Assembly (NCBI GenBank): GCA_018005585.1 | Contig: JAGMZX010000025.1 | Span: 1-48,804, forward strand | Direction of reading: 5' to 3' | Source of the DNA: Candidatus Hydrogenedentota bacterium | Lineage (GTDB): Bacteria; Hydrogenedentota; Hydrogenedentia; Hydrogenedentales; JAGMZX01 | DNA length: 48,804 nt | In this document: piece by piece, positions 13,565 through 28,438 of the stretch | Numbering within the stretch: the first letter of the stretch is position 1 | Layout: every line of letters starts with the position of its first letter | Made by a program: the position numbers and the translations under genes | The notes under the pieces: generated by a model | Seen by the model: only the letters and a program-made list of their open reading frames with translations | Database searches by the model: none | What the model was told of the DNA's origin: nothing

Positions 13565-14290
13565 ATGAAGCCGCTCGTGTCTGTTGTCATACCCTGCTTC
13601 AACGAGCAGGAGAACGTGCCGCGCCTTTGGGAGAAGGTTGCGGCGGTGTTCGCCACACTGCCGGATTACGAGTATGAGATTCTCTTCGTGAACGACGGCA
13701 GTTCAGACGGCACGCGCGCGGCGATGGACGCGCTGGCGGCACAGGACCCGCACGTGCGGCCATTGCATCTGGTGCGCAACATGGGCCAGTCCGCGGCGGT
13801 GTACGCGGGGATGATGCGGAGCCGGGGCGATTACGTGCTCACGCTGGACGGGGATCTTCAGAACGACCCGGCGGATTTCCCGCGTTTTCTGGAATTGCTG
13901 CAGCGATACGATTGCGTATGCGGCTATCGGGCGGAGCGGCACGACGCGCTGGTGCGCAAGGTTTCGAGCAAGGTGGCGAACGCGGTGCGCAATTGGGCGC
14001 TGCGCGACGGGGTGCGCGATTCGGGCTGCGGCGCGAAGGGTTTCCGGCGTGCCTGCCTGGTCCACCTGCCGCCTTTTAACGGTCTGCACCGGTTCATGGC
14101 GGTGTTCATTCGCGCGGCGGGATTGAGTCTGGTGGAAGCGCCGGTGCGGCATCATGCGCGGCAATTCGGCGTATCCAAGTATGGCATCGGCAACCGGCTG
14201 TGGCGCGGCATCTACGACTTGATCGGGGTGCGCTGGCTGCGCCGCCGGTTTGTAGCGGTGCGGGTGGAGGGGGAAGAGCCGCGTGTGTGA
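13565..14290 (+). CDS. GT2 family glycosyltransferase (polyprenyl-phosphate sugar synthase type)
   Basis: A 241-residue GT-A fold enzyme. It shows SVVIPCFNEQENVP at the N-terminus, VNDGSSDGT for nucleotide binding, TLDGDLQNDPADFP as the metal-binding DxD, and the DPM1/ArnC-like SGCGAKGFRRACL and GLHRFMAVF blocks. By family it should load a sugar from a nucleotide donor onto undecaprenyl phosphate at the cytoplasmic face. It lacks the C-terminal membrane helices of ArnC/GtrB types. Only AGGA 11 nt upstream serves as a possible ribosome site. Its last 8 nt overlap the start of the LAB_N gene, and a GT39 transferase follows, supporting a donor-lipid role. Confidence 0.88.
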   Translation: MKPLVSVVIPCFNEQENVPRLWEKVAAVFATLPDYEYEILFVNDGSSDGTRAAMDALAAQDPHVRPLHLVRNMGQSAAVYAGMMRSRGDYVLTLDGDLQNDPADFPRFLELLQRYDCVCGYRAERHDALVRKVSSKVANAVRNWALRDGVRDSGCGAKGFRRACLVHLPPFNGLHRFMAVFIRAAGLSLVEAPVRHHARQFGVSKYGIGNRLWRGIYDLIGVRWLRRRFVAVRVEGEEPRV

Positions 14291-14966
14291 CTGGTTTCAG
14301 GCGCCCCTCGCGCCCAAGCTGTGGGAACTGACCGGTATCGTCGGGGCCTGCATTTTTTACGGGCGCTTCTACCTGCAATGGATTGTGTCGGAAATCAAGA
14401 GGCGCAGCGTGATACCGGTGGCCTTCTGGTATATGAGCTGCGTTGGTTCGCTGATGCTGCTGGGTTATGCCGCATATATCCGGTCGCCTGTAGGCGCGCT
14501 CAGTCACTGCTTCAACATCGTCGTCTATTCCCGGAACCTCGTGCATATCTGGCGGGAACGCGGCGCGCTGACGCGGGCGCTCTATGTGGCGGTGCATGCC
14601 GGGGTGGCCGTGGTCGTCGCGGGCGCGCTGGCGCTCGCGGTTCACACGTGGTTGCGCGAATATGAGGCCACGAAGGAAGCGCCTGCCGCGGCGGCGAACT
14701 GGTTCTGGATCGGTGTCGGCGCGGCGGGTCAGGGCCTGTTCGCATGCCGGTTCCTGGTCCAGTGGGTGGCCACGGAGATGCGGCGGAGAAGCGTGGTGCC
14801 CGCGGCATTCTGGTATTTCAGCGTTGCGGCGGCCGCGCTGGTCTGCGTATCGCACCTGCAGCGGCTTGAATGGGTGTTCGCGGCGGGGACAGCCTCGACG
14901 CTGCTGGTGTATCTGCGCAATGTCTGGTTTATTCACCGGTATGGCGACGCGCCAGCGGACGACTGA
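14283..14966 (+). CDS. tandem LAB_N (lipid-A-disaccharide synthase N-terminal) domain membrane protein
   Basis: A 227-residue membrane protein made of two copies of the LAB_N domain, which is otherwise found at the N-terminus of LpxB in some bacteria. Copy 1 (~15-95) has GRFYLQWIVSEIKRRSVIP, AFWYMSCVGS and YSRNLVHIW. Copy 2 (~145-220) has CRFLVQWVATEMRRRSVVP, AFWYFSVAAA and YLRNVWFI. Each copy has about three hydrophobic helices, resembling a half transporter. The GTG start at 14283 overlaps the preceding gene. Such proteins recur beside GT2 and GT39 genes, and a glycolipid-related role is inferred; no reaction is established for the isolated domain. Confidence 0.85.
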   Translation: MCDWFQAPLAPKLWELTGIVGACIFYGRFYLQWIVSEIKRRSVIPVAFWYMSCVGSLMLLGYAAYIRSPVGALSHCFNIVVYSRNLVHIWRERGALTRALYVAVHAGVAVVVAGALALAVHTWLREYEATKEAPAAAANWFWIGVGAAGQGLFACRFLVQWVATEMRRRSVVPAAFWYFSVAAAALVCVSHLQRLEWVFAAGTASTLLVYLRNVWFIHRYGDAPADD

Positions 14967-15164
14967 AGGGACGGAAACGGTTGCCCTCCGGAAGGCGCGC
15001 CCGCGGTCGTCCACCGGAGGGGCGGCCTTGGCTTGGCGGAGGGGGCCGCGGGTCTGCTGGCCAGTAAGCAGGCCAGACGTCGGGTGCGGTGTTATCGCCC
15101 GGGGCCGCACATTCGTTACAATACCGCGCGTTGCCCCGGGTGGCGTAAGAGGAGGAATCAGGGT

Positions 15165-16109
15165 ATGTGGAAGACGTCATATGTCGTGCTGGCATGCCTG
15201 CTCGCGGGAACCTGGCCCAGCGTGGCCCAGACGGCGTCCCAGGCGCCGGTCATTCTCAACTACTGGACCCACCTCAACGACATCCTGAGCAACGAGACGT
15301 TTCGCCGCAACACCACTTCCGTGCGTCCAGGCGGGCGTTATTTGCCCCGAAAGGTGTACCCTTTCGAGAACGTGCAGCATCTGCGCGCGCGCGACTTGAT
15401 GCGGGCGGTGCAGGAGGGGATTAACGCGGCCCGGACGGCATCGTGGGGCAAGCCAGCGGAGGAGGTCCAGCGGCAAATCCGGCAGAACATTGTGACCGCG
15501 CTCGAGTACTATCCGCTGGTCGCGCAAGATGAACGGGAACTCAAGCCGTTGTATTACGCGATGGCGGATGTCAACGGGGAAGTGGAACTGCGGATGTTTC
15601 TGCTGCGCAGCAGCATGCCGGGCGCGTCGCGTCCGTCGTTGTTCGGTCTTTATCTTCGGGAAGCACTGGCGCATAACACCGGAGAGACGCGCAAGTACCT
15701 GAAGACCATCGTGGACCACGTAACGGAGAATCCGCAGGTGCAGCGAACCGCTATCGAGGCGTATTTCTACTACATGGAACTGGCCTATACGCAGGTGCTG
15801 AAGACCGACCCGGCGGTGGCCGCGTTCGCGGCAGACCGGGGCCAGGCGTTTCGCCCGGCGATGTTGATGGAGGCGGGCGCGCCCCAGCCGTCGGGAAGCG
15901 TGGCCCAGTTGCTCAAGGACTACGACGCGCAATGGTTCGATTTTGCGCTGACGCTCTCGGGCTACGCGCAGCCGGGCAGCAACCGGCCGATCGAGGTCCG
16001 CGAGGCATCGCGCGCATGCCTCGAACGGATATACCGTGAAATGCCGCTGTCGAATCGTGATGTCATAAAGGAATTGCTGGACCAGACGGCTCCGGTAACG
16101 CCCGCGTGA
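15165..16109 (+). CDS. secreted or periplasmic protein, unknown function
   Basis: A 314-residue protein. I set the start at 15165 because AGGAGG lies just upstream and the product then opens with a signal peptide (MWKTSYVVLACLLAGTW, likely cleaved near SVAQ). The mature part is predicted mainly helical, with repeated aromatic-rich helices (ALEYYPLVAQDERELKPLYY, YFYYMELAYTQVLK). It has no cysteine cluster, lipobox or membrane span after the signal. I recognise no domain. It lies inside the glycolipid cluster between LAB_N and GT39, 55 nt before the latter, so it may belong to that envelope pathway. About 200 nt of non-coding sequence precede it. Confidence 0.75.
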   Translation: MWKTSYVVLACLLAGTWPSVAQTASQAPVILNYWTHLNDILSNETFRRNTTSVRPGGRYLPRKVYPFENVQHLRARDLMRAVQEGINAARTASWGKPAEEVQRQIRQNIVTALEYYPLVAQDERELKPLYYAMADVNGEVELRMFLLRSSMPGASRPSLFGLYLREALAHNTGETRKYLKTIVDHVTENPQVQRTAIEAYFYYMELAYTQVLKTDPAVAAFAADRGQAFRPAMLMEAGAPQPSGSVAQLLKDYDAQWFDFALTLSGYAQPGSNRPIEVREASRACLERIYREMPLSNRDVIKELLDQTAPVTPA

Positions 16110-16164
16110 CGTTGCGGGCCGGTCTGTCTGTAGCGCAAGTGCAGAGGCGGCGAAGGACGCAATC

Positions 16165-18033
16165 ATGAAGCCGACAGTGCGGCAGATGTGCCTGCTGGGT
16201 GTCCTTTCTTTCTTTCTTTTCGGGTTTGGCATCAGTGGGTACGACCTCTGGCCGCCGGACGAGCCCCGCTATGCGCAGGTGGCGCGTGAAATGCGCGACC
16301 GAGGGGACTTCCTGACCCCCCACGTGAATGGCCAGCCCTACTATGAGAAACCGCCGCTCCTGTTCTGGGCCATGGCGGCCTGTTCCGCGCCATGGGGCGA
16401 TGTTACGGAACCCGCCGCGCGCATTCCATCCGTCGCCAGCGGGGTCGCGACGGTCCTGCTGACCTGCCTGCTCGCGCTGCGGCTCTTTGACCGCCGTACG
16501 GCGTTCTGGGCGGCAGTGATTCTCATGACCGGCGCGCGGTTCTGGTGGCAGGCGCGCACGGGCCAGATCGACATGCTCCTGACGGCCTGCGTCACTGCGG
16601 CGCTGTACGGACTGTGGCGCTGGGAGGAAGACCGCCGCGGCGGCTGGCTGATTCTGTGTTACGCGGCCACGGCGGCCGGCGCGTACGCCAAAGGCCCCGT
16701 GGCGCTCGTGTTTCCGCTGCTCTTTATCGCGGTATTCTACTGGCGCAACCGCCCGGCGCGCCGCCGCACGCACTGGCTGCTGGGCGCCGGCTGCGTACTG
16801 CTGGCCGTGGCGGTATGGTATGTCCCCGCGCGCGTGTTCGCGGCGGAGACGGCGGAACAGGCCGTTGCTTCCGGCATGGGCGGGAATCTGTTCCGCAATA
16901 TCGTTGGTCGCCTCTTCCTGGGCGTGAGCAAGGCTCAGCCGCCGTGGTACTACGCGACCACACTACCGGTAGACCTGCTGCCGTGGACGCTGGTCCTGCC
17001 TTGGGCCTTGCCCTGGGTCTGGCGGCGGCGCGCTTCCGAGAAGGCCATGTGGTTTCTCTGGTGCGCAAGCGTGCCCGCCCTGATCTTCTTCTCTCTTTCC
17101 GTGGGCAAACGCGCCGTGTACCTCCTGCCGCTATTCCCGGTCTTGGCGATATGGCTGGCCGTTTCCACGCTTGACCTGGTCGATGGGGCGCATGCCCGCG
17201 GGCGCCGCCGGATTGGGCTGGCCTGGTCCGTTGTCTTGTTGCTGATGGCCGGCGCCCCGGTCGCCCTGCGGCACACGGAATACGCGGCGCTTGCCACGCG
17301 GCAGGTGACGTATTTCGCCGTGCTCGCGGGGTGCCTCGGCCTCGCGCTGCTTGCCGGGAGCCTGCTCACGGACATGAAGCGCCTGCATGTGGCCCTGGCG
17401 GCCTCTTTCGCGGTGCTGGCCACGGCTGCCGTCTGGGCAGTGTTCCCGGTGGTGAACACCGTGAAATCCGCGCGCGCCATCTGTGCGCCGGTCCGTGCGC
17501 TGGCGGACGCCGGGGCGGACTTCCATCTGTATTCCGTGGGATTCTCCCGCGAGGAATACGTCTACTACAGCCGTCATCCCCACGAAGAGGTGTTCACGAA
17601 CCTGGTCGGAAACGTACCCGCCGATTCCAAGGCCCTGCTGCAAGCGGCGGAAACGCAAAAGGCGGCCCGAAAGCGTATCGCCGGGGCAGTGGACGGGGTG
17701 CCCGTCGCCAATATCGCCGCGGTGACCGTCGAGGAACGCGCCGCGCTGCGCCATGCCATCGAAAACGCCATCGAGAGTGCCGAAGAGGATATCCAGGCCC
17801 TGCGCACCTTTGAAAAGGGCCTGACCGAGGAAATCGACGCGTTCGCGGCCCTGTTTGCCGCGCCGGACCCGGCCTTTGTGTTCGTGCAAGAGGAGGACTG
17901 GCGCTGGCTGGTGCCGTTGTTCACCACGGTTCCGGCCTATCATGTTGTCCAACATCGGGAGGTCGGGCGGCGCGAGGTGCTCCTGCTTGCCAACGACGCA
18001 GCCATGCGCTTGGCGGCAGGGACGGTCCTGTGA
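16165..18033 (+). CDS. ArnT-like GT39 family glycosyltransferase
   Basis: A 622-residue integral membrane transferase of the PMT_2/ArnT type, which moves a sugar from undecaprenyl phosphate to an acceptor on the periplasmic side. The first loop carries WPPDEPRYAQVAREM with the catalytic Asp/Glu, then YYEKPPLLFW. Further hallmarks are ARTGQIDMLLT and YAKGPVALVFP, and SVGKRAVYLLPLFP. About 11-12 helices fill residues 8-435, followed by a periplasmic C-terminal domain. The latter contains an unusually helical, charged stretch (~485-560). AAGGA precedes the ATG. In context it should use the lipid-linked sugar made by the GT2. The acceptor, lipid A or another glycolipid or protein, is not identifiable. 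Confidence 0.87.
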   Translation: MKPTVRQMCLLGVLSFFLFGFGISGYDLWPPDEPRYAQVAREMRDRGDFLTPHVNGQPYYEKPPLLFWAMAACSAPWGDVTEPAARIPSVASGVATVLLTCLLALRLFDRRTAFWAAVILMTGARFWWQARTGQIDMLLTACVTAALYGLWRWEEDRRGGWLILCYAATAAGAYAKGPVALVFPLLFIAVFYWRNRPARRRTHWLLGAGCVLLAVAVWYVPARVFAAETAEQAVASGMGGNLFRNIVGRLFLGVSKAQPPWYYATTLPVDLLPWTLVLPWALPWVWRRRASEKAMWFLWCASVPALIFFSLSVGKRAVYLLPLFPVLAIWLAVSTLDLVDGAHARGRRRIGLAWSVVLLLMAGAPVALRHTEYAALATRQVTYFAVLAGCLGLALLAGSLLTDMKRLHVALAASFAVLATAAVWAVFPVVNTVKSARAICAPVRALADAGADFHLYSVGFSREEYVYYSRHPHEEVFTNLVGNVPADSKALLQAAETQKAARKRIAGAVDGVPVANIAAVTVEERAALRHAIENAIESAEEDIQALRTFEKGLTEEIDAFAALFAAPDPAFVFVQEEDWRWLVPLFTTVPAYHVVQHREVGRREVLLLANDAAMRLAAGTVL

Positions 18034-18136
18034 GGTTGACGTCCGGAGTCTTGCCGGGGCCGGGTATTGTCCCGGGGAGCCGGCGCAGAGGACTGGCCCG
18101 GTCACAATGCTCATCAGAACGGACGAGCACGGCATC

Positions 18137-18165
18137 TTGAAGGGTTGTTTCCGCTGCTGTAGCAT
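18137..18165 (+). promoter_or_regulatory. putative promoter of the epimerase gene
   Basis: TTGAAG (18137-18142), 17-nt spacer, TAGCAT (18160-18165). The predicted start near 18172 would leave a leader of only about 15 nt containing the GGAGGA ribosome site. Confidence 0.38.
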
Positions 18166-18186
18166 GGCGGGGAAGGAGGAACGGGC

Positions 18187-19251
18187 GTGAAGAACATCCT
18201 GGTGACCGGCGGCGCGGGGTTTGTTGGGTCATGCCTGGCCTTGGGCGTGAAGGCGCGGCGCGAGGGGATGCGCGTCGTTGCGCTGGACAATCTGAAACGG
18301 CGCGGTTCGGAATTGAACCTGAGCCGGCTGCGCGCGGGCGGGGTCGAATTCCTGCACGGTGACATCCGCAACCCTGAAGACCTGGAAGCGGCGGGTAAAG
18401 TGGACCTGATCCTGGAATGCAGCGCGGAGCCGTCCGTACTGGCGGGCTACGACGGGTCGCCGCAGTACGTGCTGAACACGAACCTGACCGGCACGCTGCA
18501 TTGCCTGGAGCACGCCCGCCGCCATGGCGCCGCACTGGTTTTCCTGTCGACAAGCCGGGTGTATCCCATCGAAACGATAAACCGCTTGCCGTTGGAGGAG
18601 ACGTCGACCCGGTTCGAACTGGCGAAGGCGCAGGACACGCCCGGGGTCTCCGCGTCGGGTTTTTCGGAGGCGTTTCCGCTCGACGGCGCGCGGTCGCTTT
18701 ATGGCGCGACGAAGCTGTGCTCGGAACTGGTGCTCCAGGAGTATCTGGCCATGTACGGGCTGCGCGGCGTGATCAACCGTTGCGGCGTCATCGCGGGGCC
18801 GTGGCAGATGGGCAAGGTGGACCAAGGCGTTGCGGTGCTCTGGGCGGCGCGGCACGTTTTCGGCGGAACATTGAACTATATCGGTTTTGGCGGCACGGGC
18901 AAGCAGGTTCGCGACCTGCTGCATGTCGAGGACCTGCTCGAACTTGTCCTTTACGAAATCGGCCATCTGGATGCGCTGTCAGGCAGCGTGTTCAATGTGG
19001 GCGGGGGGCGCGCGGTGAGCCTGTCGCTGCTCGAAATGACTCGCGTTTGCGAAGAACTGACCGGGAACCGGCTCGAGATCGGGCGTATCCCCGAAACGCG
19101 CGCCGGGGATATCCCGATCTATCTGACCGACCACGGTCTTGTAACGTCGGCGACGGGATGGCGGCCCAAACGGGATGCAAGGGGTATACTGGAAGACATA
19201 TGCCGCTGGATTGCGGACCACCGGGATTCCCTGGCGGTGATCCTGGGTTAG
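18187..19251 (+). CDS. NAD-dependent sugar-nucleotide epimerase/dehydratase (TyvE-like)
   Basis: An extended short-chain dehydrogenase of 354 residues starting at a GTG behind GGAGGAAC. It has the Rossmann motif TGGAGFVGS at residues 7-15, STSRVYP with the catalytic Ser/Thr region, and SLYGATKLCSELV carrying the YxxxK pair. The block NRCGVIAGPWQMGKVDQGV strongly resembles CDP-paratose 2-epimerase (TyvE) and close relatives, which act on CDP-deoxyhexoses. Substrate specificity is inferred only; UDP- or GDP-sugar epimerases of the same branch are alternatives. It follows the GT39 gene on the same strand and may supply the modified sugar for the glycolipid cluster. Confidence 0.83.
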   Translation: MKNILVTGGAGFVGSCLALGVKARREGMRVVALDNLKRRGSELNLSRLRAGGVEFLHGDIRNPEDLEAAGKVDLILECSAEPSVLAGYDGSPQYVLNTNLTGTLHCLEHARRHGAALVFLSTSRVYPIETINRLPLEETSTRFELAKAQDTPGVSASGFSEAFPLDGARSLYGATKLCSELVLQEYLAMYGLRGVINRCGVIAGPWQMGKVDQGVAVLWAARHVFGGTLNYIGFGGTGKQVRDLLHVEDLLELVLYEIGHLDALSGSVFNVGGGRAVSLSLLEMTRVCEELTGNRLEIGRIPETRAGDIPIYLTDHGLVTSATGWRPKRDARGILEDICRWIADHRDSLAVILG

Positions 19252-19435
19252 AGGTCGCGGAACGGCCCGTTCCACGGCGTTGAGATGGGTCTTGCAGTTG
19301 ACGATGCCGCGCCGGAACAGGCGCGGAACTTTCGATGAAAGGCGCGTATTCATGAGAACAGGCGGGCGCAGCGGCGACTCCCGGTTCTCGCGCGAGCCAC
19401 CAGGTGCGTTCCATAAGGAGCGAAGGGGTACGGAA

Positions 19436-22400
19436 ATGAGCATCCGGCATTTTCTCAAACGTTCACGTCAAGCGCTCGTTATTCTCGCCTTTGCGGCGGC
19501 GCTCGCCTGGCTGGCGGGGCCGTACCGGCAGTCCGGGGAGGAGGGGGCAGGTGTTCGCGCTGAAGCGCCCGCCCCCGCGCCGGACGCCGCGGCGCCCGCT
19601 GCGGAGAATGCCGCGGACGCGGCGACGCCGTGGCTTGATATCGTGGGGCGCGTTCCGCTGGAAGGCGACTTGTTCGACGGGCGTCTCTTCCTGTTCTTCA
19701 ATACGGCGATCCAGGCTCCGTTCGATGCGGACGGCAATCTGCTGCCGCCGCTGCTGCTGGAACCGGCCCTGCCGGGCGCATTTGCGGTGAAGGAGAACTG
19801 CGTGCAGTTCACCGCGGAGAATCCCGCGAATCTCGGCGCGCTCATCCTCGGGGTCCGTCCCAGCGAGCAGTTGCGCGGCACGGACGGCCGGGCCCCGAAC
19901 CCGGCGGCCGCGCCGATCAACCTGCTCACGCGCGCGTACACCGCGGAGCGGATGTGGGTAATCGAGAAATCGGGCGATGCGCTTGTGCTCGGGTTGAACT
20001 TCACGTTCCTGCCCGACATGACGCAGCTGGCCGCCTTCCTCACCATCGTGGACAACGCGCAGCAGTCTGTGGCGTTCACGGTCGAACTCGGCACCAGCGA
20101 CAAGGGCGCCTATGCGCGGGTGCGCCTGCCAGGCAACGTTGCGTTACCGATCACGATCACGGTGGCGCCGGGCGTGCCGGACGCGAGCGGGCGCGTCGTC
20201 ACGCGCGAGGGCAAGCAGTTTATCTACCCCATGAAGGACCCGCTCCGCGTCGAGCGTCTTTATCTGGACACGTCCCGCGACGAACAGTCTAAACTGTCCT
20301 TCAAGTTTTCGGGCAAGGTGGCGCCCGCGGATCTTACCGCGCGCCTGCACGTCAACTATCTGAGCGACGGCGCGAACCTGCCCTTTACCCTGGAGGGGGA
20401 GGGCGCTGCGCGCGAACATGAGGTCCTGCTGACGGAAGAGGTGCAGCCCGGCCAGACGATTGTAGTGACGCTCGACGCGGGTTTGACCGCGGAAGATTTC
20501 TCGGTCATGCGCCAGCCGTTCAGCAAGCAGTTGAAGCGCGAGACGAAGCCGCTGCGACTGGAATCGCACTGGTGGAACAACCTGGGGAAGGACGGCGTCG
20601 AACTGCGCTTCTACCTGAACGAACCCGTCAGTCTCGACGCGCTGCGGCAGCACGCGGCATTCGAGCCTGAGGTGCCCGGCCTCGAATTCGTGCATGAAGG
20701 CTGGTCTTCCTTCTCGATCCGCGGCGATTTCCGTTCCGAGGGCCGCTACCGGCTGATCCTGCAGCCCGGCCTCGCCGATAACTCGGGCAACTACGCCGTA
20801 TCAGAGCGCGAGGAGATCGCGCTCGACATCGTGCCGCGCGCCGCCGGCGCCGGGTTCGGCTACGCGGGCAAGTATTACTTTCCGCGGCGGCAGGGCACGG
20901 AATTCCTGATCGAATCCCGCAACCGCAGCGAAGCGCAAATCACGGTGTCCCGCCTGTTTCCCTCGAACATCGCGGTTGCGCTGGAGGCCATCGAAGACGG
21001 AAGCGGTTCGTGGGAGTTTGACGACCGCTGGGCGGAAGTCCTGAAGACGACTAAGGTGGTGTTCCGCGACGCCCCCGACGCGCTCGTGCGCACGCCCGTC
21101 GAATTGCGCGCCCTGTTCGACGACAACTGGCGCGGCGTGTTCCGCCTGAGCGTGGATGACGGCGGCTCGGGCAAGATCGTCGTCTGGACCGATATCGGCG
21201 CGCTGGCGCATTGGCAGGAAGACGAGGTCGTCATCTTCGCCCATGACCTGACCACGCTCGAACCGATCGCGGGCGCTCAGGTCACCGTCTATTCGCATAA
21301 GAACCAGGTGGTTGGGACGGCCAATACCGACGCGCAAGGCATCGCCCTCGTGCGCGGACTGAACCCGGCACTGGGCGCGCCGCAGGTCGCCGTTATCGAG
21401 ACCAGCAAGGACTACACGTTCCTCGAGCTCGAACGGCGCGAGGACGACCCCGTAACGTACAACGAGGATATGCCTGCCTTCGACAAGGACGGTTACGACG
21501 CGTTCCTCTACGCGGACCGCGACCTCTACCGTCCGGGCGAGACGGTGTACTTGCACTGGCTGGTGCGCACAAACTACGGCGATGCGCTGCCCAACGTGCC
21601 GCTCAAACTCACGGTGAACCGGCCGAACGGTTCCGTGTATGTCTCGGAAGCCGTGGCCCTGTCTGAACTGGGCACGGGCGGGCGCTCCTTGCAGACGGAC
21701 AAGTCGGACCCGACGGGCCGGTACACGGTGCAGCTCAGCGCGCCCGGCGACCCGTCGCCGATCGGCATGTACTACTTCAGCGTGGAGGAATTCGTGCCGA
21801 ACCGGATCGCCGTCGAAACGGCGCTGGACCCGGGGCTATGGACGCCTGGCGGGCAATACCCGATTCATGTTCAGGCGCGGCATCTGTTCGGGGCGCCGGC
21901 GGCGGAGCGCAAGTGCGAGGCGGAAGTGGCGCTGCTGAAAGGCGATTTGAAGACGGAACAGTGGCGCGAATACCGGTTCACGAACAGCGAAGAATACAAG
22001 GGCGAAATCGTGCCCGCGGGCTCGGCGCAGACCGATGCGGAGGGCAAGGCGGAATTCACGTTCAACGTGGAACTGCCGGGCGAGGTCACTTTCCCCGTGC
22101 GCGCGCTGGTACGGGGCCGCGTCTTCGAACTGGGCGGGCGCGCCGTTACTTCAACGAGGGAAACGACCGTGTTTCCGGGCGAGGTATGCCTGGGCCTGCG
22201 TTGCGCGGAAGCGGCGGACCATCAGGGTGTCGAGGTGTTCGTCGCGGCAATCCGGCCCGACGAATCGCCCGCGCCCCTCGAAAAAGTGAAGGTCATCCTC
22301 GAACGCGAGGAATGGAGCTACTACGTCCGCGCCTATGACGGTTATAACGATTGGGAATGGACGAAGGTATTTGAGGAAAAGGACAGCCGTGACGTGCCGT

Positions 22401-25213
22401 TGACCGAAGGACGGGGCTCGACGGTTTTTCCACTGTCAGGCTGGGGATACTACCGCGTGAAAGTAGTGTCCGACGCGACCACGCAGTACAGCGACCAGCA
22501 GTTCTACGGCTACTGGGACGGTCGCGTGGAACTGGTCGACCAGGCGCGGCCCAGTCTTTTGAAACTGACCCTGAACCAGCAGGAATATACCGTTGGCGAA
22601 GAAGTCGAGGCGCGGCTTGAATCGCCGTTCGACGGCGTCGGCTACGTCGTGGTGCAGGGCGAAAACATCAGCCGCGCGCAAGCGGTGCAAATTGTCGATG
22701 GCGTTGGCTTGGTGCGTTTCGCGGTCGGCGACGAAGAAGTGCCGAACGTCTGGATCGAGGCAACGGTTGTGCACAAGGCCGCGGAAGACTCGGCGCACGT
22801 GTATCCTTACGCGAGTTTCGCCATGGCCAACGCGGTAGTGCGCAATCCGCGGCGGATGCTCGCCGTGAGTTTCCCGGGCCTGCCGGAAGAGACACGTCCC
22901 GCGCAAGACTGGCAGGTGGCCATCGAGACGCGCGACCACGCGGGCGCGCCGGTGGCGGCGGAAGTGACGGTGGCCGCTGTCGATGAAGGCATTCACGCGC
23001 TGACGGACTATGCGACGCCAGAGCCGTACGCGTGGGTCATGCGTTCGCGGCAGCCCGATTTCAGCCGGGCTCACTACTACGACCGCGTGGCCTACGACTT
23101 TGGCAAGACACCTATCGGCGGCGACGCTATCGCGAGGCGGTTCGGCAAGGACGCGCCCTTTGTAGGCGACAACTGGATCAAACCCGTCGCGCTGTGGTCG
23201 GGCGTGGTGCGCACCGATGAAACGGGGCGCGGCCTGGTGACGTTCTCGCTGCCGGAGTACTCGGGCCAGTTGCGGCTTGTGGCCGTGGCCTGCACGCAGG
23301 GCGCCGTCGGCGCGACAGGGCAGGACATCTATGTGCGCCGGCCCTACATGTTGCGCACGAGCATGCCGCGCTTTGCGCTGCCCGGCGACCGGTTCCAGTG
23401 CCGCGCCGCCGTTTTCAATACGACGGCCGCGCCGTGCACGGCGCGCATTTCATGGAAGGCGCAGGGCGCCTTGACGGGAGGCGAAGGCTCGAAGGAGATC
23501 GCCGTCGAGCCGTCGCGCGACGCCTCGGCCCTGGCCGAGTTCGCGGCCGGCATGGCCATGGGCCAGGGCGCGATCCTCTGGCAGGCGGAGATTGTCGACG
23601 CCGCGGGCGCGGTCGTCGAAACCTTGAAGGAGGAAGCGCCGATCCCGGTGCGGCCGCCCGCCATGTATCAGACAACGCACGAACTGGCCGTGCTCGGGCC
23701 GGGCGAGAGCCGCACGTTCAAGAATGCGCAGTACATCGACGCGGCGAATACGACGCTCGACATGTCCGTGAGCGCGGACCCGACCTTGCGCTTGCGCGAT
23801 GCGCTCAAGTACGTCGTCGGCTATCCGTACGGATGCGTCGAACAGACGACGTCGCGGTGCCTGCCCATGTACCTGCTGCGGCGCGACACGGCGCTGCTCG
23901 GGGCGGCGTTGGAGGCGCAATGGCCCGTTGACCATTACCTGCAGGCGGGCGTAGACCGCCTGTTCTCGATGCAGACCGGCGGCGGCGGACTGGGCGGCTG
24001 GCCTGGCGCGGCGACGCCGTACGCGTACGGGTCCGTATATGCGTGTCATTTCCTCACGCTGGCCCGGCGCGACCACGAACTGAAGGTGCCGGAGCAGCCA
24101 TTCAAGGCGCTGCAGGACTACGTGCGCGCGGTCGCGAATGACTGGGACGACTCCTCGGACACGTACGAGAACTATCACGGGTATTCGGCCCTCTATATGC
24201 GCGCCTACGCGCACTACGTGCTCGCGCTGGACGGCGACATCGAGGCGATCCGCGGCATTGAGCGCTTTGACACGCTAAGCCTGCCGGCGGCGGCGCGTTA
24301 TCTGCTGGCGGCAGCCCTGGCGATGAACACGCAGGACACCGACCGCGTGAAACTGTACCTCAGTTCAGCGCCGTCGGAACCGTACGACGTCACGGAGCAG
24401 GACGGCACGCTGAACTCCGATATCCGAAACGAGGCGGTGCGGTTGATTGCGCTGCTGCAGATAGACGGGTCTGACCCGGCCTGCTTTGAGACCGTGAACA
24501 AGCTCACGCGCTACCTGGAAACGCACCGGTACGGCAGCACGCAGGAGACCGCGTTCATCGTTACGGCGCTGGCCATGTACTACGGGCGTCTGGAGGAGCA
24601 ACTGGGCAAAGCCGCGGCGACCATCGTCACGCCGAAGGGCGACAGCGTTCAACTGGACCTCGGCGCGGGCTATCGCGGGAAACACGAAGGGCCCGGCGGC
24701 CTCTTTGTGGTGACGAACACGGGCGTGGGCCCCATCTTCGTCAGTTTCACCGTGGGTGGCACGCCCGCACAGGCGGAGACCCAGGCGATCTCCGAGGGCT
24801 TCCAGGTGGTGCGCGACGTGCGTTCGGTGCGCGACGGCGCGGCGGTCTCGGGAGAATTCCGGCAGGGCGACAGCTACATCGTCGAGATCACGCTCCAGGC
24901 GAGCGACGAATCGAAGAACGTGATCGTAGACGACCCGCTGCCCGCGGGGTTCGAGATCGAGAATCCGCGGCTGGACCCCGACCTGCTTGCTGGCGTCGAG
25001 ATACCCGAAGCGATGACGCCGACCTATCTCGAAGTGCGAGACGACCGTTACGTGGCCGCCTTCGACGCGCTCGCGGCAGGCGAGCATCACCTGTACTATA
25101 TCGTGCGCGCGGTCACGCCCGGAACCTTCCAGCGTCCCGGTGCGCGGACCGAATGCATGTATGACGCGGCGGTGCGCGGCACGTGTGTTCCGGAGACGAT
25201 CGCGGTCAAATAG
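19436..25213 (+). CDS. bacterial alpha-2-macroglobulin, thioester type (YfhM-like)
   Basis: A 1,925-residue periplasmic protease trap. I took the ATG at 19436, giving MSIRHFLKRSRQALVILAFA, a basic start and hydrophobic helix that is a signal peptide or anchor. No lipobox cysteine is present, unlike YfhM. An N-terminal block of about 690 residues precedes the MG2-like YADRDLYRPGETVYLHWLVR (from 692). YYFSVEEFVPNR, a bait-adjacent region and WSGVVRTDETGRGLVTFSLP follow. The thioester is intact: YGCVEQTTSR with C1467 and Q1470. The C-terminal domain has ITLQASDESKNVIVDDPLP. By family it covalently captures attacking proteases after bait cleavage. PBP1C, its usual partner, is encoded 3.2 kb downstream on the same strand, with an M16 protease gene between. 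Confidence 0.92.
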   Translation: MSIRHFLKRSRQALVILAFAAALAWLAGPYRQSGEEGAGVRAEAPAPAPDAAAPAAENAADAATPWLDIVGRVPLEGDLFDGRLFLFFNTAIQAPFDADGNLLPPLLLEPALPGAFAVKENCVQFTAENPANLGALILGVRPSEQLRGTDGRAPNPAAAPINLLTRAYTAERMWVIEKSGDALVLGLNFTFLPDMTQLAAFLTIVDNAQQSVAFTVELGTSDKGAYARVRLPGNVALPITITVAPGVPDASGRVVTREGKQFIYPMKDPLRVERLYLDTSRDEQSKLSFKFSGKVAPADLTARLHVNYLSDGANLPFTLEGEGAAREHEVLLTEEVQPGQTIVVTLDAGLTAEDFSVMRQPFSKQLKRETKPLRLESHWWNNLGKDGVELRFYLNEPVSLDALRQHAAFEPEVPGLEFVHEGWSSFSIRGDFRSEGRYRLILQPGLADNSGNYAVSEREEIALDIVPRAAGAGFGYAGKYYFPRRQGTEFLIESRNRSEAQITVSRLFPSNIAVALEAIEDGSGSWEFDDRWAEVLKTTKVVFRDAPDALVRTPVELRALFDDNWRGVFRLSVDDGGSGKIVVWTDIGALAHWQEDEVVIFAHDLTTLEPIAGAQVTVYSHKNQVVGTANTDAQGIALVRGLNPALGAPQVAVIETSKDYTFLELERREDDPVTYNEDMPAFDKDGYDAFLYADRDLYRPGETVYLHWLVRTNYGDALPNVPLKLTVNRPNGSVYVSEAVALSELGTGGRSLQTDKSDPTGRYTVQLSAPGDPSPIGMYYFSVEEFVPNRIAVETALDPGLWTPGGQYPIHVQARHLFGAPAAERKCEAEVALLKGDLKTEQWREYRFTNSEEYKGEIVPAGSAQTDAEGKAEFTFNVELPGEVTFPVRALVRGRVFELGGRAVTSTRETTVFPGEVCLGLRCAEAADHQGVEVFVAAIRPDESPAPLEKVKVILEREEWSYYVRAYDGYNDWEWTKVFEEKDSRDVPLTEGRGSTVFPLSGWGYYRVKVVSDATTQYSDQQFYGYWDGRVELVDQARPSLLKLTLNQQEYTVGEEVEARLESPFDGVGYVVVQGENISRAQAVQIVDGVGLVRFAVGDEEVPNVWIEATVVHKAAEDSAHVYPYASFAMANAVVRNPRRMLAVSFPGLPEETRPAQDWQVAIETRDHAGAPVAAEVTVAAVDEGIHALTDYATPEPYAWVMRSRQPDFSRAHYYDRVAYDFGKTPIGGDAIARRFGKDAPFVGDNWIKPVALWSGVVRTDETGRGLVTFSLPEYSGQLRLVAVACTQGAVGATGQDIYVRRPYMLRTSMPRFALPGDRFQCRAAVFNTTAAPCTARISWKAQGALTGGEGSKEIAVEPSRDASALAEFAAGMAMGQGAILWQAEIVDAAGAVVETLKEEAPIPVRPPAMYQTTHELAVLGPGESRTFKNAQYIDAANTTLDMSVSADPTLRLRDALKYVVGYPYGCVEQTTSRCLPMYLLRRDTALLGAALEAQWPVDHYLQAGVDRLFSMQTGGGGLGGWPGAATPYAYGSVYACHFLTLARRDHELKVPEQPFKALQDYVRAVANDWDDSSDTYENYHGYSALYMRAYAHYVLALDGDIEAIRGIERFDTLSLPAAARYLLAAALAMNTQDTDRVKLYLSSAPSEPYDVTEQDGTLNSDIRNEAVRLIALLQIDGSDPACFETVNKLTRYLETHRYGSTQETAFIVTALAMYYGRLEEQLGKAAATIVTPKGDSVQLDLGAGYRGKHEGPGGLFVVTNTGVGPIFVSFTVGGTPAQAETQAISEGFQVVRDVRSVRDGAAVSGEFRQGDSYIVEITLQASDESKNVIVDDPLPAGFEIENPRLDPDLLAGVEIPEAMTPTYLEVRDDRYVAAFDALAAGEHHLYYIVRAVTPGTFQRPGARTECMYDAAVRGTCVPETIAVK

Positions 25214-25287: not shown

Positions 25288-28086
25288 TCAGTTAGCGCCG
25301 GATGTCACGTCGGGAATCAGCGACGGCGCAGCGACGACCGTCACGGGCGCGATGCGTTCGAGTCCGGCTTGCAGCCGCTGCGCGGGCCCGGTCACGACGA
25401 TGACCAGCTTGCCCGTGTCCACCGTAGCGCGCGCAAGCGCGGCGCAGGCCGCGGCGTCGGTTGCGGCGACGGCGTCCATCATGCGCTGGAAATAGTCCGG
25501 CGGCAGGCCTTCGGATTCGAGCAGCCACACGTCACCTGCTTCCTGTTGCGGCGTTTCGCGCCGCGCGGCGAGGCTGCCGGTGAGGAAGGTCTTCGTGTCG
25601 CCAAGTTCCTGGTCGTCGGGCGGAACGTCGCGCAGGCGCTCGAACTCAGCGAGCACGGTTCGGATGGCCTCGTCCACGGCATCAATGTTCGTGAAGGTCC
25701 CGGCGCCGAACTCGCCTGCCAGCCGCTGCGCCGAATAACCGCCCCACGCGCCGTAGGTCAGGCCTTTCTCGACGCGGACGGCCCGGTTGATCCGGCTGCC
25801 GAAGGCATCGCCGAAGTAGCCGCTGGTCACCTCTGCCGTGAAGTATCCGGGGTGGCTGCGCGTGATGCCGCGCTGGCCGATGCGGATTTGCGCCTGCGTC
25901 GCGGGCATGTCGACGATGTAAATGTGCGTCGGCGCGGGTTCCGGCAGCGGCGGCAGGACCGTTTCCGGCTTTGCGCCCTGTGCCTGCCACGCGCCGAAGG
26001 CCTTTTCGGCGAGCGCGGCGGCCCGCTCCATGTCGATATCGCCCGCGAAGATGAGCCATGCGGCATCCGGGCGGGCGTTGTCCGCCCACCACTGGCGCAC
26101 ATCATCCGGTTCGAGCTTGGCCACGTCGGCAACCTCGCCGCGGACCGTGCGCGCGTAGGGATGGTCCCCGTAAAGCCTGCGCCGGTATTCGCGCGCGACG
26201 ATATAGCCCGGCTCCATGGCCTGCACGATGAGTTCCGTGGCGACCTGCTGCTTGAGCTTGGCCAGTTCCTCGCCGGGGAACGCGGGACGCAGCATCGCCT
26301 CGGCCATGAGGTCCACGGCGCGCTCCGCGTGTTCGGTCAGGCACCCGGCATAGATGGCCGCGCTGTCCATCGCGGCGATGCCATTCATGGAAATCGCGTA
26401 GGTCTCCAGTTCGTCGGCAAACTGTTGCTCGGAAAACCGCGCCGAACCCCGGGTGAGCATGCTCATCGTCATGGCCGCCGCGCCCGGCTTCGCCTCGGTC
26501 CACGCGCCGCCGCGCAGGTGCAGTTCGATCGATAGATAGGGCACCTCGTGATTCTCGACCACGATGACCCTGACGCCGTTCCCGAGGACGCGCGACTGCG
26601 CCTTTGGCGCGGGGTCGTAACTGAGCGCGGCCGTCACGGGCGGGGTTTCCGGCCAGTCCGCGGGGCGCGTCACGCCCGGCCTGCCCGTGGGCGGCGGCTG
26701 CAGTTCCGGCGTGGGCGCCTGGACCGGTGTTTCTTCGATGCCGCCGGAGAACAACGTGCCGAACAAATTCTGCGCGACGCGAATCTCCGTGGCCTTATCG
26801 GGCGTGAGATAGGTCCGCGCAACGCGCAACAGGTCCGCTTCCGTGCAGCGGCGAATATCTTCGATACGGCGGTTGACGCGTGCGGTGTCGCCTTCGATCA
26901 CGCATGCCTGGCCGAGCGCGGCCGCCTTGCTGTCGGCCATGAGCCGTTCCGTTACCAAGTCGCGCAGCAGGTTGTTCCGCGCCTTTTCGAGTTCGCGCGG
27001 CGACACCGGCGCTTCGCACAGCCGGGTCATCTCCTCGAGCAGCGCGGCCAGCGCCGCGTCGCTCTTGGTTGACAGCGGCAGCAGCAGCGCGCCGATACCG
27101 AGACCACCGTCCCGTTCAAGGAACAGGGACATGCCCTGCGCCGCGACCGCAATCTGGTCCTGGGCCACGAGGCGGCGGTAGACGCGGCTGCTGTGGCCGG
27201 AGCCGGCAATGTGCGCGAGCAGCGCGAGCGGCGCGTAATCGGCGTGGTTCACGGGCGCCGTCGGGTAATAGAGCGCCACGACTGGCGCGGGCGCCTTCTC
27301 GGGCCGGAACGTGAAGGCGCGGCGCGTTCCCGGCGGCAGTTCGGCGGCGGCCACGCGCGGCGGGTCCGCGGCTTGCGGGATCCACCCGAAATACCGTTCC
27401 GCCAGCGCCATGGCCCTGTCGTGACCGACCGCTCCGGCGATAATCAGCGTTGCGTTATTCGGTACGTAATACGCCGTCCAGAAGGCGCGCAACTCGGATA
27501 CCGGCGCCGCGCGCAGATGAGCGATCATGCCCAGCGGCGTCCAGCGGTAGGGGCGTCCCTCGAAGACCACCGGCGGGATGTCCAAGAGCAGCGTGCCGTA
27601 GGGCTCATTCAGCGCAAGCCGCGATTCCTCCTCGACGACGCTTCGCTCCGTGTCGAAGGATTCCTGGTCGATTTTGAGGAAGGTCATGCGCTCGGCTTCG
27701 AGCCAGAGCGCGAGTTCAAGCTGATTTGCCGGGAGGGTCTGGAGATAGACCGTCTGGTCGAAACTGGTGTAACCGTTGTTATAGCCGCCGACACGGTGGA
27801 TGTAGTCGAAGTGGCCCGTGGGCCCGAGGCGGTCCGTGCCCCGGAACATCATGTGCTCGAACATGTGCGCAAACCCCTGCCGCTCCGGGTTCTCGTCCTT
27901 CGACCCCACGTGATACCAGACCTGCACGCTCACAATGGGACAGGAGAAATCTTCGAGCGTGATCACTCTGAGCCCGTTGTCGAGCACGCGTTCGCGATAA
28001 TCGAACGCGCCCGAATCCTGGGCGAAGGCACGGCATACCGCAACCGTAAAGACGAACGTGAAGATGACTGATTGTGCCGCGCGCAT
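25288..28086 (-). CDS. M16 family zinc metallopeptidase, two-domain, secreted
   Basis: A 932-residue pitrilysin-clan protease. A signal peptide (MRAAQSVIFTFVFTVAVCRAFAQ) directs export. The first half carries the inverted zinc motif HMFEH (H74, E77, H78) within RQGFAHMFEHMMF, and the downstream ERSVVEEESRLALNEPYG supplies the third zinc ligand. The second half repeats the fold (GAAAMTMSMLTRGSARFSEQ) but lacks HxxEH, as expected for the non-catalytic partner. PEKAPAPVVALYYP and GVRVIVVENHEVPYLSIELH mark the other M16 subdomains. GGAGGGAGG precedes the ATG. It lies antisense between the macroglobulin and PBP1C genes. It probably degrades peptides in the periplasm; its substrates are unknown. 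Confidence 0.93.
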   Translation of the reverse strand: MRAAQSVIFTFVFTVAVCRAFAQDSGAFDYRERVLDNGLRVITLEDFSCPIVSVQVWYHVGSKDENPERQGFAHMFEHMMFRGTDRLGPTGHFDYIHRVGGYNNGYTSFDQTVYLQTLPANQLELALWLEAERMTFLKIDQESFDTERSVVEEESRLALNEPYGTLLLDIPPVVFEGRPYRWTPLGMIAHLRAAPVSELRAFWTAYYVPNNATLIIAGAVGHDRAMALAERYFGWIPQAADPPRVAAAELPPGTRRAFTFRPEKAPAPVVALYYPTAPVNHADYAPLALLAHIAGSGHSSRVYRRLVAQDQIAVAAQGMSLFLERDGGLGIGALLLPLSTKSDAALAALLEEMTRLCEAPVSPRELEKARNNLLRDLVTERLMADSKAAALGQACVIEGDTARVNRRIEDIRRCTEADLLRVARTYLTPDKATEIRVAQNLFGTLFSGGIEETPVQAPTPELQPPPTGRPGVTRPADWPETPPVTAALSYDPAPKAQSRVLGNGVRVIVVENHEVPYLSIELHLRGGAWTEAKPGAAAMTMSMLTRGSARFSEQQFADELETYAISMNGIAAMDSAAIYAGCLTEHAERAVDLMAEAMLRPAFPGEELAKLKQQVATELIVQAMEPGYIVAREYRRRLYGDHPYARTVRGEVADVAKLEPDDVRQWWADNARPDAAWLIFAGDIDMERAAALAEKAFGAWQAQGAKPETVLPPLPEPAPTHIYIVDMPATQAQIRIGQRGITRSHPGYFTAEVTSGYFGDAFGSRINRAVRVEKGLTYGAWGGYSAQRLAGEFGAGTFTNIDAVDEAIRTVLAEFERLRDVPPDDQELGDTKTFLTGSLAARRETPQQEAGDVWLLESEGLPPDYFQRMMDAVAATDAAACAALARATVDTGKLVIVVTGPAQRLQAGLERIAPVTVVAAPSLIPDVTSGAN

Positions 28087-28438
28087 GGGAACCCTCCCTC
28101 CGTGCCCTCAGACACGCAAGACATCCTACAGAATCCATCAGCGGCGCCGCCACTGCATTGCGGCATTCCAGGGTTGGCTTGTTCAAAGGGGTTGTCTCAC
28201 GCCGGAGCGATGGCCGAACACCGTACTGTCGGCCGAATTTGGCCGGTGTCCAGATGGGCCCCCCGTTTCCGGCGGTATCGCCGGGGCATGGGCCGGGGAG
28301 AACCGAGGCCATGCAAGGCGGTTTTTCTGAACCTTTTGCCAAGCGGGAGGATTACACAGGCGCGCGGCCGCGTAACGGCAAGGGTGCTGGCCGGATGGTT
28401 ACAGTATAATGCGTGAGAGCGGATTCCGGATGCTCGCG
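28087..28438. other. divergent intergenic region between M16 and PBP1C genes
   Basis: No credible gene. It contains the M16 ribosome site, a perfect 6-bp hairpin CCGGCG-GTAT-CGCCGG (28269-28284), and a TATAAT at 28405-28410 without a good -35. That -10 includes the first possible PBP1C ATG (28409), which argues for a later start codon. Confidence 0.5.

Follow-up and report, generated by a model that had tools for sequence, protein, structure and literature searches.

In the gtrA-gtrB-gtr(type) systems of O-antigen glucosylation and the GtcA systems of teichoic-acid glycosylation, a polyprenyl-phosphate sugar synthase is combined with a small membrane protein, the putative flippase, and a GT-C transferase, as presented in PMC7389260. 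The crossing of membranes by polyprenyl-phosphate monosaccharides is a poorly settled step, and the same source terms GtrA and GtcA putative flippases (PMC7389260). In mammals, every known dolichol-phosphate monosaccharide reaction depends on the PQ-loop protein MPDU1, the function of which was given as unknown as of 2012 (PMC3281891). Here, we analyze a locus from a Candidatus Hydrogenedentota genome (6.08 Mb in 288 contigs), contained in a 48,804-nucleotide stretch of contig JAGMZX010000025.1 (the window). An earlier note on this DNA had described five genes on one strand as a single cluster for modification of a glycolipid. All five open reading frames were found on the plus strand, within 5.7 kb, and they encode a GT2 glycosyltransferase, a membrane protein with two LAB_N domains (LAB_N protein), a secreted protein, a GT39 glycosyltransferase and a TyvE-like epimerase. 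The labels given by the note agree with the nearest PDB sequences, which are ArnC for the GT2, ArnT for the GT39 and CDP-tyvelose 2-epimerase for the epimerase. Its interpretation was supported in part. GT2, LAB_N and GT39 form a recurring unit whose parts fit the steps by which a lipid-linked sugar would be loaded, moved across the membrane and transferred, the predicted fold class of LAB_N is that of a transporter, and the three genes very probably act together.

The locus has the same three-component architecture as the gtr and GtcA systems (PMC7389260), but its small protein is LAB_N rather than GtrA, and its GT2 has no membrane part. In comparison with ArnC/ArnE-ArnF/ArnT, the GT2 is nearest to ArnC and the GT39 is nearest to ArnT, with the ArnT motifs kept, whereas both enzymes fall far below the equivalog cut-offs and LAB_N occupies the ArnE/F slot. 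In a table of one review, arnE, arnF, arnT and gtrA are entered as associated with Und-P sequestration, and arnC and gtrB as independent of it (PMC12826051). LAB_N shares with SemiSWEET and SWEET proteins, which are its best PDB profile matches, a repeat of three transmembrane (TM) segments that occurs singly or doubled in a 3-1-3 arrangement, but it lacks the Pro of the PQ doublet, and its genomic partners are glycosyltransferases. In a paper on SemiSWEET gene context, the term 'glycosyl' is absent from the main text (PMC5972207). The double LAB_N region is also found in LpxB proteins with an N-terminal LAB_N (PRK01021 model), the LpxB domain of which is absent here. The three-component architecture is already known, and the new part is LAB_N as its middle component. 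The GlcN-PG operon gpgSDF was considered as a precedent and rejected, as its predicted flippase belongs to another family, UPF0104, according to PMC12713373. In the Bordetella Lgm cluster, another candidate precedent for LAB_N, lgmD proved non-essential as reported in one paper (PMC4993483).

Conservation of the GT2-LAB_N-GT39 unit

In the window, the GT2 gene (positions 13565-14290) is followed by the LAB_N gene (14283-14966), the start of which overlaps the end of the GT2 gene by 8 bp, and the GT39 gene is located at 16165-18033, all on the plus strand. For comparison, 67 LAB_N loci (797 kb) were picked by the LAB_N motif alone, comprising 54 of Hydrogenedentota type, 11 from Planctomycetota and 2 from Verrucomicrobia. 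Hydrogenedentota-type loci (L073-L126) were assigned by similarity, and the sequence titles differ for six of them (L084, Rhodothermaeota; L091, L113, L114, L117 and L121, uncultured). All counts refer to loci and not to genomes, some of which contribute two loci. Matches to the GT2 profile were located upstream of LAB_N on its strand in 37 of 38 cases, 36 of these at a distance of at most 47 bp, and the GT2-LAB_N gap was at most 30 bp in 35 of 37. All 28 matches to the GT39 profile were downstream of LAB_N on the same strand. Both profiles were trained on loci of the GT2-LAB_N-GT39 cluster, so unrelated GT2s may escape detection. The co-location of GT2, LAB_N and GT39 exceeds chance.

Among the 54 Hydrogenedentota-type loci, an upstream GT2 was found at 26, a downstream GT39 at 18 and the gene for the secreted protein directly downstream of LAB_N at 10. 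Many of these loci are short contigs, and some are cut by contig ends; where the sequence extends 1 kb or more upstream and 3.6 kb or more downstream, the corresponding fractions are 17/36, 15/36 and 9/36. Scattering of the genes in relatives, which the earlier note had named as a sign against a functional cluster, was thus seen in part. In Planctomycetota, GT2 is present at 11/11 loci and the order GT2-LAB_N-GT39 is found at 10/11, with a single-domain LAB_N. Of 40 genomes, 39 encode LAB_N proteins. The window genome is one of these, and in it LAB_N is confined to two GT2-LAB_N loci; the second pair is on contig C246, which ends soon afterwards. The sister genome, G001, also has a second copy of the pair, on contig C134, which runs on into GT39. 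GT2 and LAB_N co-occur even where they are unlinked: in a set of 20 genomes, LAB_N is missing from G003 alone, and G003 is also the sole genome in which no GT2 match at 1e-40 was obtained.

The same association is observed on plasmids. A tblastn search with the LAB_N protein led to 19 plasmid records, and all 19 loci (14 annotated, 5 unannotated) were examined. Their hosts are Alphaproteobacteria, Fusobacteriota, Bacteroidota, Aeromonas and Paenibacillus. By profile, GT2 is adjacent to LAB_N or in the same gene run at 17/19 loci, and GT39 is on the same strand at 16/19; no GT39 was found by profile at the Paenibacillus locus. The order is GT2-LAB_N-GT39 on Azospirillum, Thalassospira and Ilyobacter plasmids, LAB_N-GT39-GT2-SDR in Paracoccus and GT2-LAB_N-SDR-UDP-glucose dehydrogenase-GT39 in Cetobacterium. 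Because gene order is reshuffled while gene content is kept, these arrangements point to a shared function rather than mere descent. An SDR-family gene is present at 13/19 plasmid loci, and two-component genes (response regulator and kinase) flank 7 of the 14 annotated ones.

Predicted fold of the LAB_N protein

The LAB_N protein matched the Pfam family LAB_N (1.3e-42) in two stretches, with PF07578 domains at 14334-14543 and 14715-14927. Its AlphaFold2 model (predicted local distance difference test score [pLDDT] 92.8, predicted template modelling score [pTM] 0.87) comprises seven helices in a 3-1-3 layout (residues 9-39, 46-65, 69-92, 98-130, 136-167, 174-193 and 197-220). Repeats 1 and 2 matched each other with 99.8% probability, and single LAB_N matched each repeat with 99.9%. 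Residues that do not vary among 25 Hydrogenedentota LAB_N proteins include F25, R28, F29, Q32, W33, S36, E37, P45, F48, W49 and S52 of repeat 1 and R156, Q160, W161, E165, P173, F176, W177 and S180 of repeat 2, and a Gly, Phe, Arg, Gln, Pro, Phe, Trp and Ser are still invariant across 17 sequences from several phyla.

When a profile of these 17 sequences was compared with 177,635 PDB sequences, 10 matches were listed up to an E-value of 10, and the top six are of SemiSWEET type, among them the 'uncharacterized' entry 4x5m and the 'chemical transport' entries, which we take to be SemiSWEETs. The SemiSWEET-type matches (E-values of 0.0042 to 0.55, best score 20.4 bits) are consistent but weak, as are matches to MtN3_slv, which were obtained for 4 of the 17 members (best E-value 0.01). 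In the alignment, the invariant Gln of LAB_N occupies the position of the PQ Gln, and the residue that precedes it is not Pro. The Pro-Gln doublet is described as the commonest but non-universal PQ-loop motif (PMC3281891). As the Pro of the doublet is missing, LAB_N would be a relative within the superfamily and not a SWEET. SWEET genes proper (PF03083) were not found in the 40 genomes of the phylum that were searched. The double LAB_N protein is predicted from its model to be a seven-helix membrane protein of the SWEET (PQ-loop) type.

GT2 and GT39 enzymes

The GT2 is a short ArnC/DPM1-like protein, putatively a polyprenyl-phosphate sugar synthase. It matched the Pfam family Glycos_transf_2 (1.7e-31), its nearest PDB sequences are ArnC (9.1e-35) and dolichol-P-mannose synthase (7.3e-14), and the motif DGDLQN is located at residue 95. 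With 137 bits against the NCBIfam cut-off of 529, it does not qualify as an ArnC equivalog. A hydropathy scan detected no membrane segment over threshold in the window GT2 and 12 plasmid partners (13/13), the scan being crude, as the same threshold recovers only three of the seven helices in the LAB_N model. In contrast to these partner GT2s without a membrane segment, the solved ArnC chains have at least 322 residues.

The GT39 is an ArnT/PMT-like GT-C transferase with Pfam matches to PMT_2 (2e-16) and also to PMT, and its nearest PDB sequence is ArnT (1.6e-15). Its score of 131.4 bits is likewise below the NCBIfam cut-off for an ArnT equivalog, which is 567. The ArnT-type motifs of the first periplasmic loop are kept, with RYA at residues 35-37 and YYEKP ending at 63 (EKP at 61). 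RYA and YxEKP-type motifs are reported to be required in ArnT (PMC5377068).

In a separate observation, matches to the GtrA domain in 8 of 25 relatives (L180-L187) are situated in open frames that are 368 to 526 residues long. Given this length and the family name, these frames look like GT2-GtrA fusions, in contrast to the membrane-free GT2 of the window.

The secreted protein and the epimerase

The secreted protein is encoded between LAB_N and GT39 (15165-16109, plus strand) by a gene with an ATG start preceded by AGGAGG. A Pfam search with the protein returned nothing above cut-off. Its N-terminus, read by eye, is signal-peptide-like, and its model (pLDDT 84.9) has HEAT and armadillo proteins as its best structural matches, with Z-scores up to 10.7, a range that the tool describes as common among such repeats. 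Orthologues directly follow LAB_N at the 10 of 54 loci given above and were seen in Hydrogenedentota only. Based on its model, the protein is predicted to be a phylum-restricted alpha-solenoid companion of LAB_N.

The epimerase gene (18187-19251, plus strand) encodes an extended SDR protein that matched the Pfam family Epimerase (4.3e-35) and, best among PDB sequences, CDP-tyvelose 2-epimerase (3.4e-41), with the catalytic YxxxK motif present as YGATK at residue 172. By sequence, it is TyvE-like, and CDP-paratose is only a putative substrate. We judge it to lie outside the conserved unit. The idea that the whole gene set is conserved as a cluster held for GT2, LAB_N and GT39, which recur in distant phyla, but membership of the epimerase had to be abandoned: an orthologue (at least 52% identity) is present in 17 of 20 genomes, including that of the window, yet in the sister species it is found away from the cluster. 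There, the epimerase gene adjoins an alpha-2-macroglobulin (A2M) gene on contig C71 (L172), whereas GT2-LAB_N-secreted-GT39 is on C167. Among 41 sequences scanned, the epimerase accompanies the cluster in the window alone. LAB_N and GT39 were not seen around it in eight relatives, the sister included, and one GT2-like match was obtained in its surroundings in the other seven. The co-location of the epimerase with the cluster is not beyond chance.

Because the sister has epimerase-A2M apart from the GT2-LAB_N cluster, the window appears to join two blocks. The epimerase would be part of the second block, on the A2M side, or stand alone, and the conserved epimerase-A2M order in the sister, away from the cluster, would place a rearrangement breakpoint between 18033 and 18187. 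Alternatively, an assembly join in the window genome or in the sister genome may have caused the differing layout.

Proposed mechanism and alternative explanations

The enzymatic and transport steps set out here, and likewise the sugar and the acceptor, are what we infer from the genes, their recurrence across phyla, the predicted 3-1-3 fold and the motifs. GT2, LAB_N and GT39 probably constitute a three-component polyprenyl-phosphate-sugar glycosylation system, with LAB_N as a translocator or hand-over factor. On the inner face of the inner membrane, the soluble GT2 would load polyprenyl phosphate with a sugar taken from its nucleotide. The LAB_N protein, with its predicted PQ-loop/SWEET fold, would dock the GT2 and allow the sugar-lipid either to cross to the outer face or to be presented there; we favor only slightly the reading in which LAB_N itself is the translocator or hand-over factor. 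The ArnT-like GT39 would then pass the sugar on to a periplasmic acceptor that is anchored in a membrane, and the secreted solenoid may serve as a lineage-specific periplasmic accessory. In this Gram-negative host, the likeliest acceptor for GT39 would be lipid A or the lipopolysaccharide core. Lipid A is a possible acceptor that should be available in the window genome because LpxC (lpxC) is present there, and in one relative (L083), a Kdo/WaaP-kinase-like gene is located shortly after GT2-LAB_N. Paenibacillus is Gram-positive and has no lipid A. As it carries GT2-LAB_N, accompanied by an SDR gene, the system would not be bound to lipid A.

Several observations weigh against this mechanism. 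At 18 of the 54 Hydrogenedentota-type loci (some of them cut by contig ends), LAB_N is without any of the three partners, GT2 and GT39 were not found at either Verrucomicrobia locus (2/2), and two Hymenobacter plasmid loci have no GT2 and carry their GT39 on the opposite strand. Structure comparison agrees with a SWEET-like fold but is not decisive, as the best Foldseek match of the LAB_N model to a SWEET has an E-value of 0.61. VIA-align gave Z-scores of 9.9 with PnuC (root-mean-square deviation [rmsd] 4.9, 159 aligned), 6.1 with SWEET 5cth (rmsd 6.7, 138 aligned) and 5.5 with SemiSWEET 4rng (rmsd 2.1, 82/83 residues), all below the value of ∼13 under which a match may reflect chance or a common helical arrangement. 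An experimental role or transport biochemistry for LAB_N was not found in the literature search, which covered open-licence papers only. Homology of LAB_N to the GtrA flippases (PF04138) was rejected as well, since there is no Pfam match and profiles of the two families show no similarity, with an hhalign probability of 0.5%, as for negative controls. GtrA is argued to be SWEET-related too in one study (PMC7176098).

Two alternatives concern the role of LAB_N. Since the partner GT2s examined, all 13 of them, are without a membrane segment, LAB_N might act only as membrane anchor or activator of the soluble GT2, in the way that DPM3 is an anchor and activator of DPM1, with the sugar-lipid flipped by another protein. 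The very short distance between the two genes (35 of 37 gaps at most 30 bp) would suit such a protein complex, but an anchor has no need of a transporter-like fold in two copies with R, Q, E and N residues that never vary, and LAB_N is beside GT39 with no adjoining GT2 at 5/54 loci (one or more of them cut by a contig end), so we consider a pure anchor rather unlikely. The Pfam name would instead place LAB_N in lipid A disaccharide synthesis and make the cluster a core lipid A gene set. This is highly improbable, as the match to residues 14-196 of the 610-residue PRK01021 LpxB model, which speaks for it, scores 76.6 against a cut-off of 1033 and excludes the LpxB catalytic part, LAB_N of the window genome is confined to its two GT2-LAB_N loci, and GT2-LAB_N also occurs in Gram-positive Paenibacillus.

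Two others concern the extent of the pathway and its acceptor. All five genes, the TyvE-like epimerase included, could form one dedicated pathway for the synthesis and transfer of a rare sugar, for example tyvelose, in line with their single strand and 5.7-kb span, the SDR gene of some kind at 13/19 plasmid loci and the arrangement in Cetobacterium, where genes for an SDR protein and UDP-glucose dehydrogenase separate LAB_N from GT39. The separation of epimerase-A2M (C71) from the cluster (C167) in the sister, the company of the epimerase with the cluster in the window alone among 41 sequences and its surroundings in the seven other relatives, with one GT2-like match and no GT39 or LAB_N seen, make such a pathway improbable. 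The acceptor might also be a protein or a peptidoglycan-linked polymer rather than a lipid, with GT39 as a PMT-type protein transferase, and the PMT_2 and PMT domain calls, the secreted protein within the cluster and the presence of GT2-LAB_N in a Gram-positive bacterium would agree with this. However, the flanking two-component genes resemble regulated lipid A modification loci. ArnT is the nearest solved structure and its motifs are kept in GT39 (PMC5377068), and a non-lipid acceptor is accordingly regarded as doubtful.

LAB_N, which is widespread, small, well conserved and tied by gene order to loading and transfer enzymes, provides a clean bacterial test system for the crossing step, and the misleading family name would be replaced. 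A PQ-loop middle component would also be common to the locus and to DPM1/MPDU1/PMT, an analogy at the level of fold that is drawn from the literature only. Tentatively, LAB_N might be a bacterial counterpart of MPDU1, with GT2-LAB_N-GT39 mirroring DPM1-MPDU1-PMT, the eukaryotic genes for which are not clustered. If this were true, moving or presenting polyprenyl-phosphate monosaccharides across membranes would be an ancient and general task of PQ-loop proteins as a class.

Neighboring genes and other LAB_N contexts

Within the five-gene run, the intergenic gaps are 198 bp after LAB_N, 55 bp after the gene for the secreted protein and 153 bp after GT39. Divergent groEL/groES genes are located upstream of the run. 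Downstream, domain searches identified a bacterial A2M gene (19430-25213), an M16 peptidase gene convergent with it (25288-28086, minus strand) and a gene for a PbpC-type transglycosylase/transpeptidase (28409-30751). The A2M and PbpC-type genes presumably represent a BAM-PbpC pair.

Where LAB_N has no partner in Hydrogenedentota-type loci, the next gene is, for example, one for a glycerophosphodiester phosphodiesterase or an aldolase. A glycerophosphodiester phosphodiesterase-family gene follows LAB_N in L076, L078 and L094 (Hydrogenedentota, no upstream GT2), and this combination is a possible second LAB_N context. In Verrucomicrobia (L129 and L138), a single LAB_N gene adjoins thioredoxin-like genes, and L129 also contains a GMP-type nucleotidyltransferase gene. 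In Hymenobacter (L143 and L153), a double LAB_N, encoded by one gene or two adjacent ones, is flanked by a two-component system on one side and an RND efflux operon on the other, and GT39 and SDR genes are on the opposite strand.

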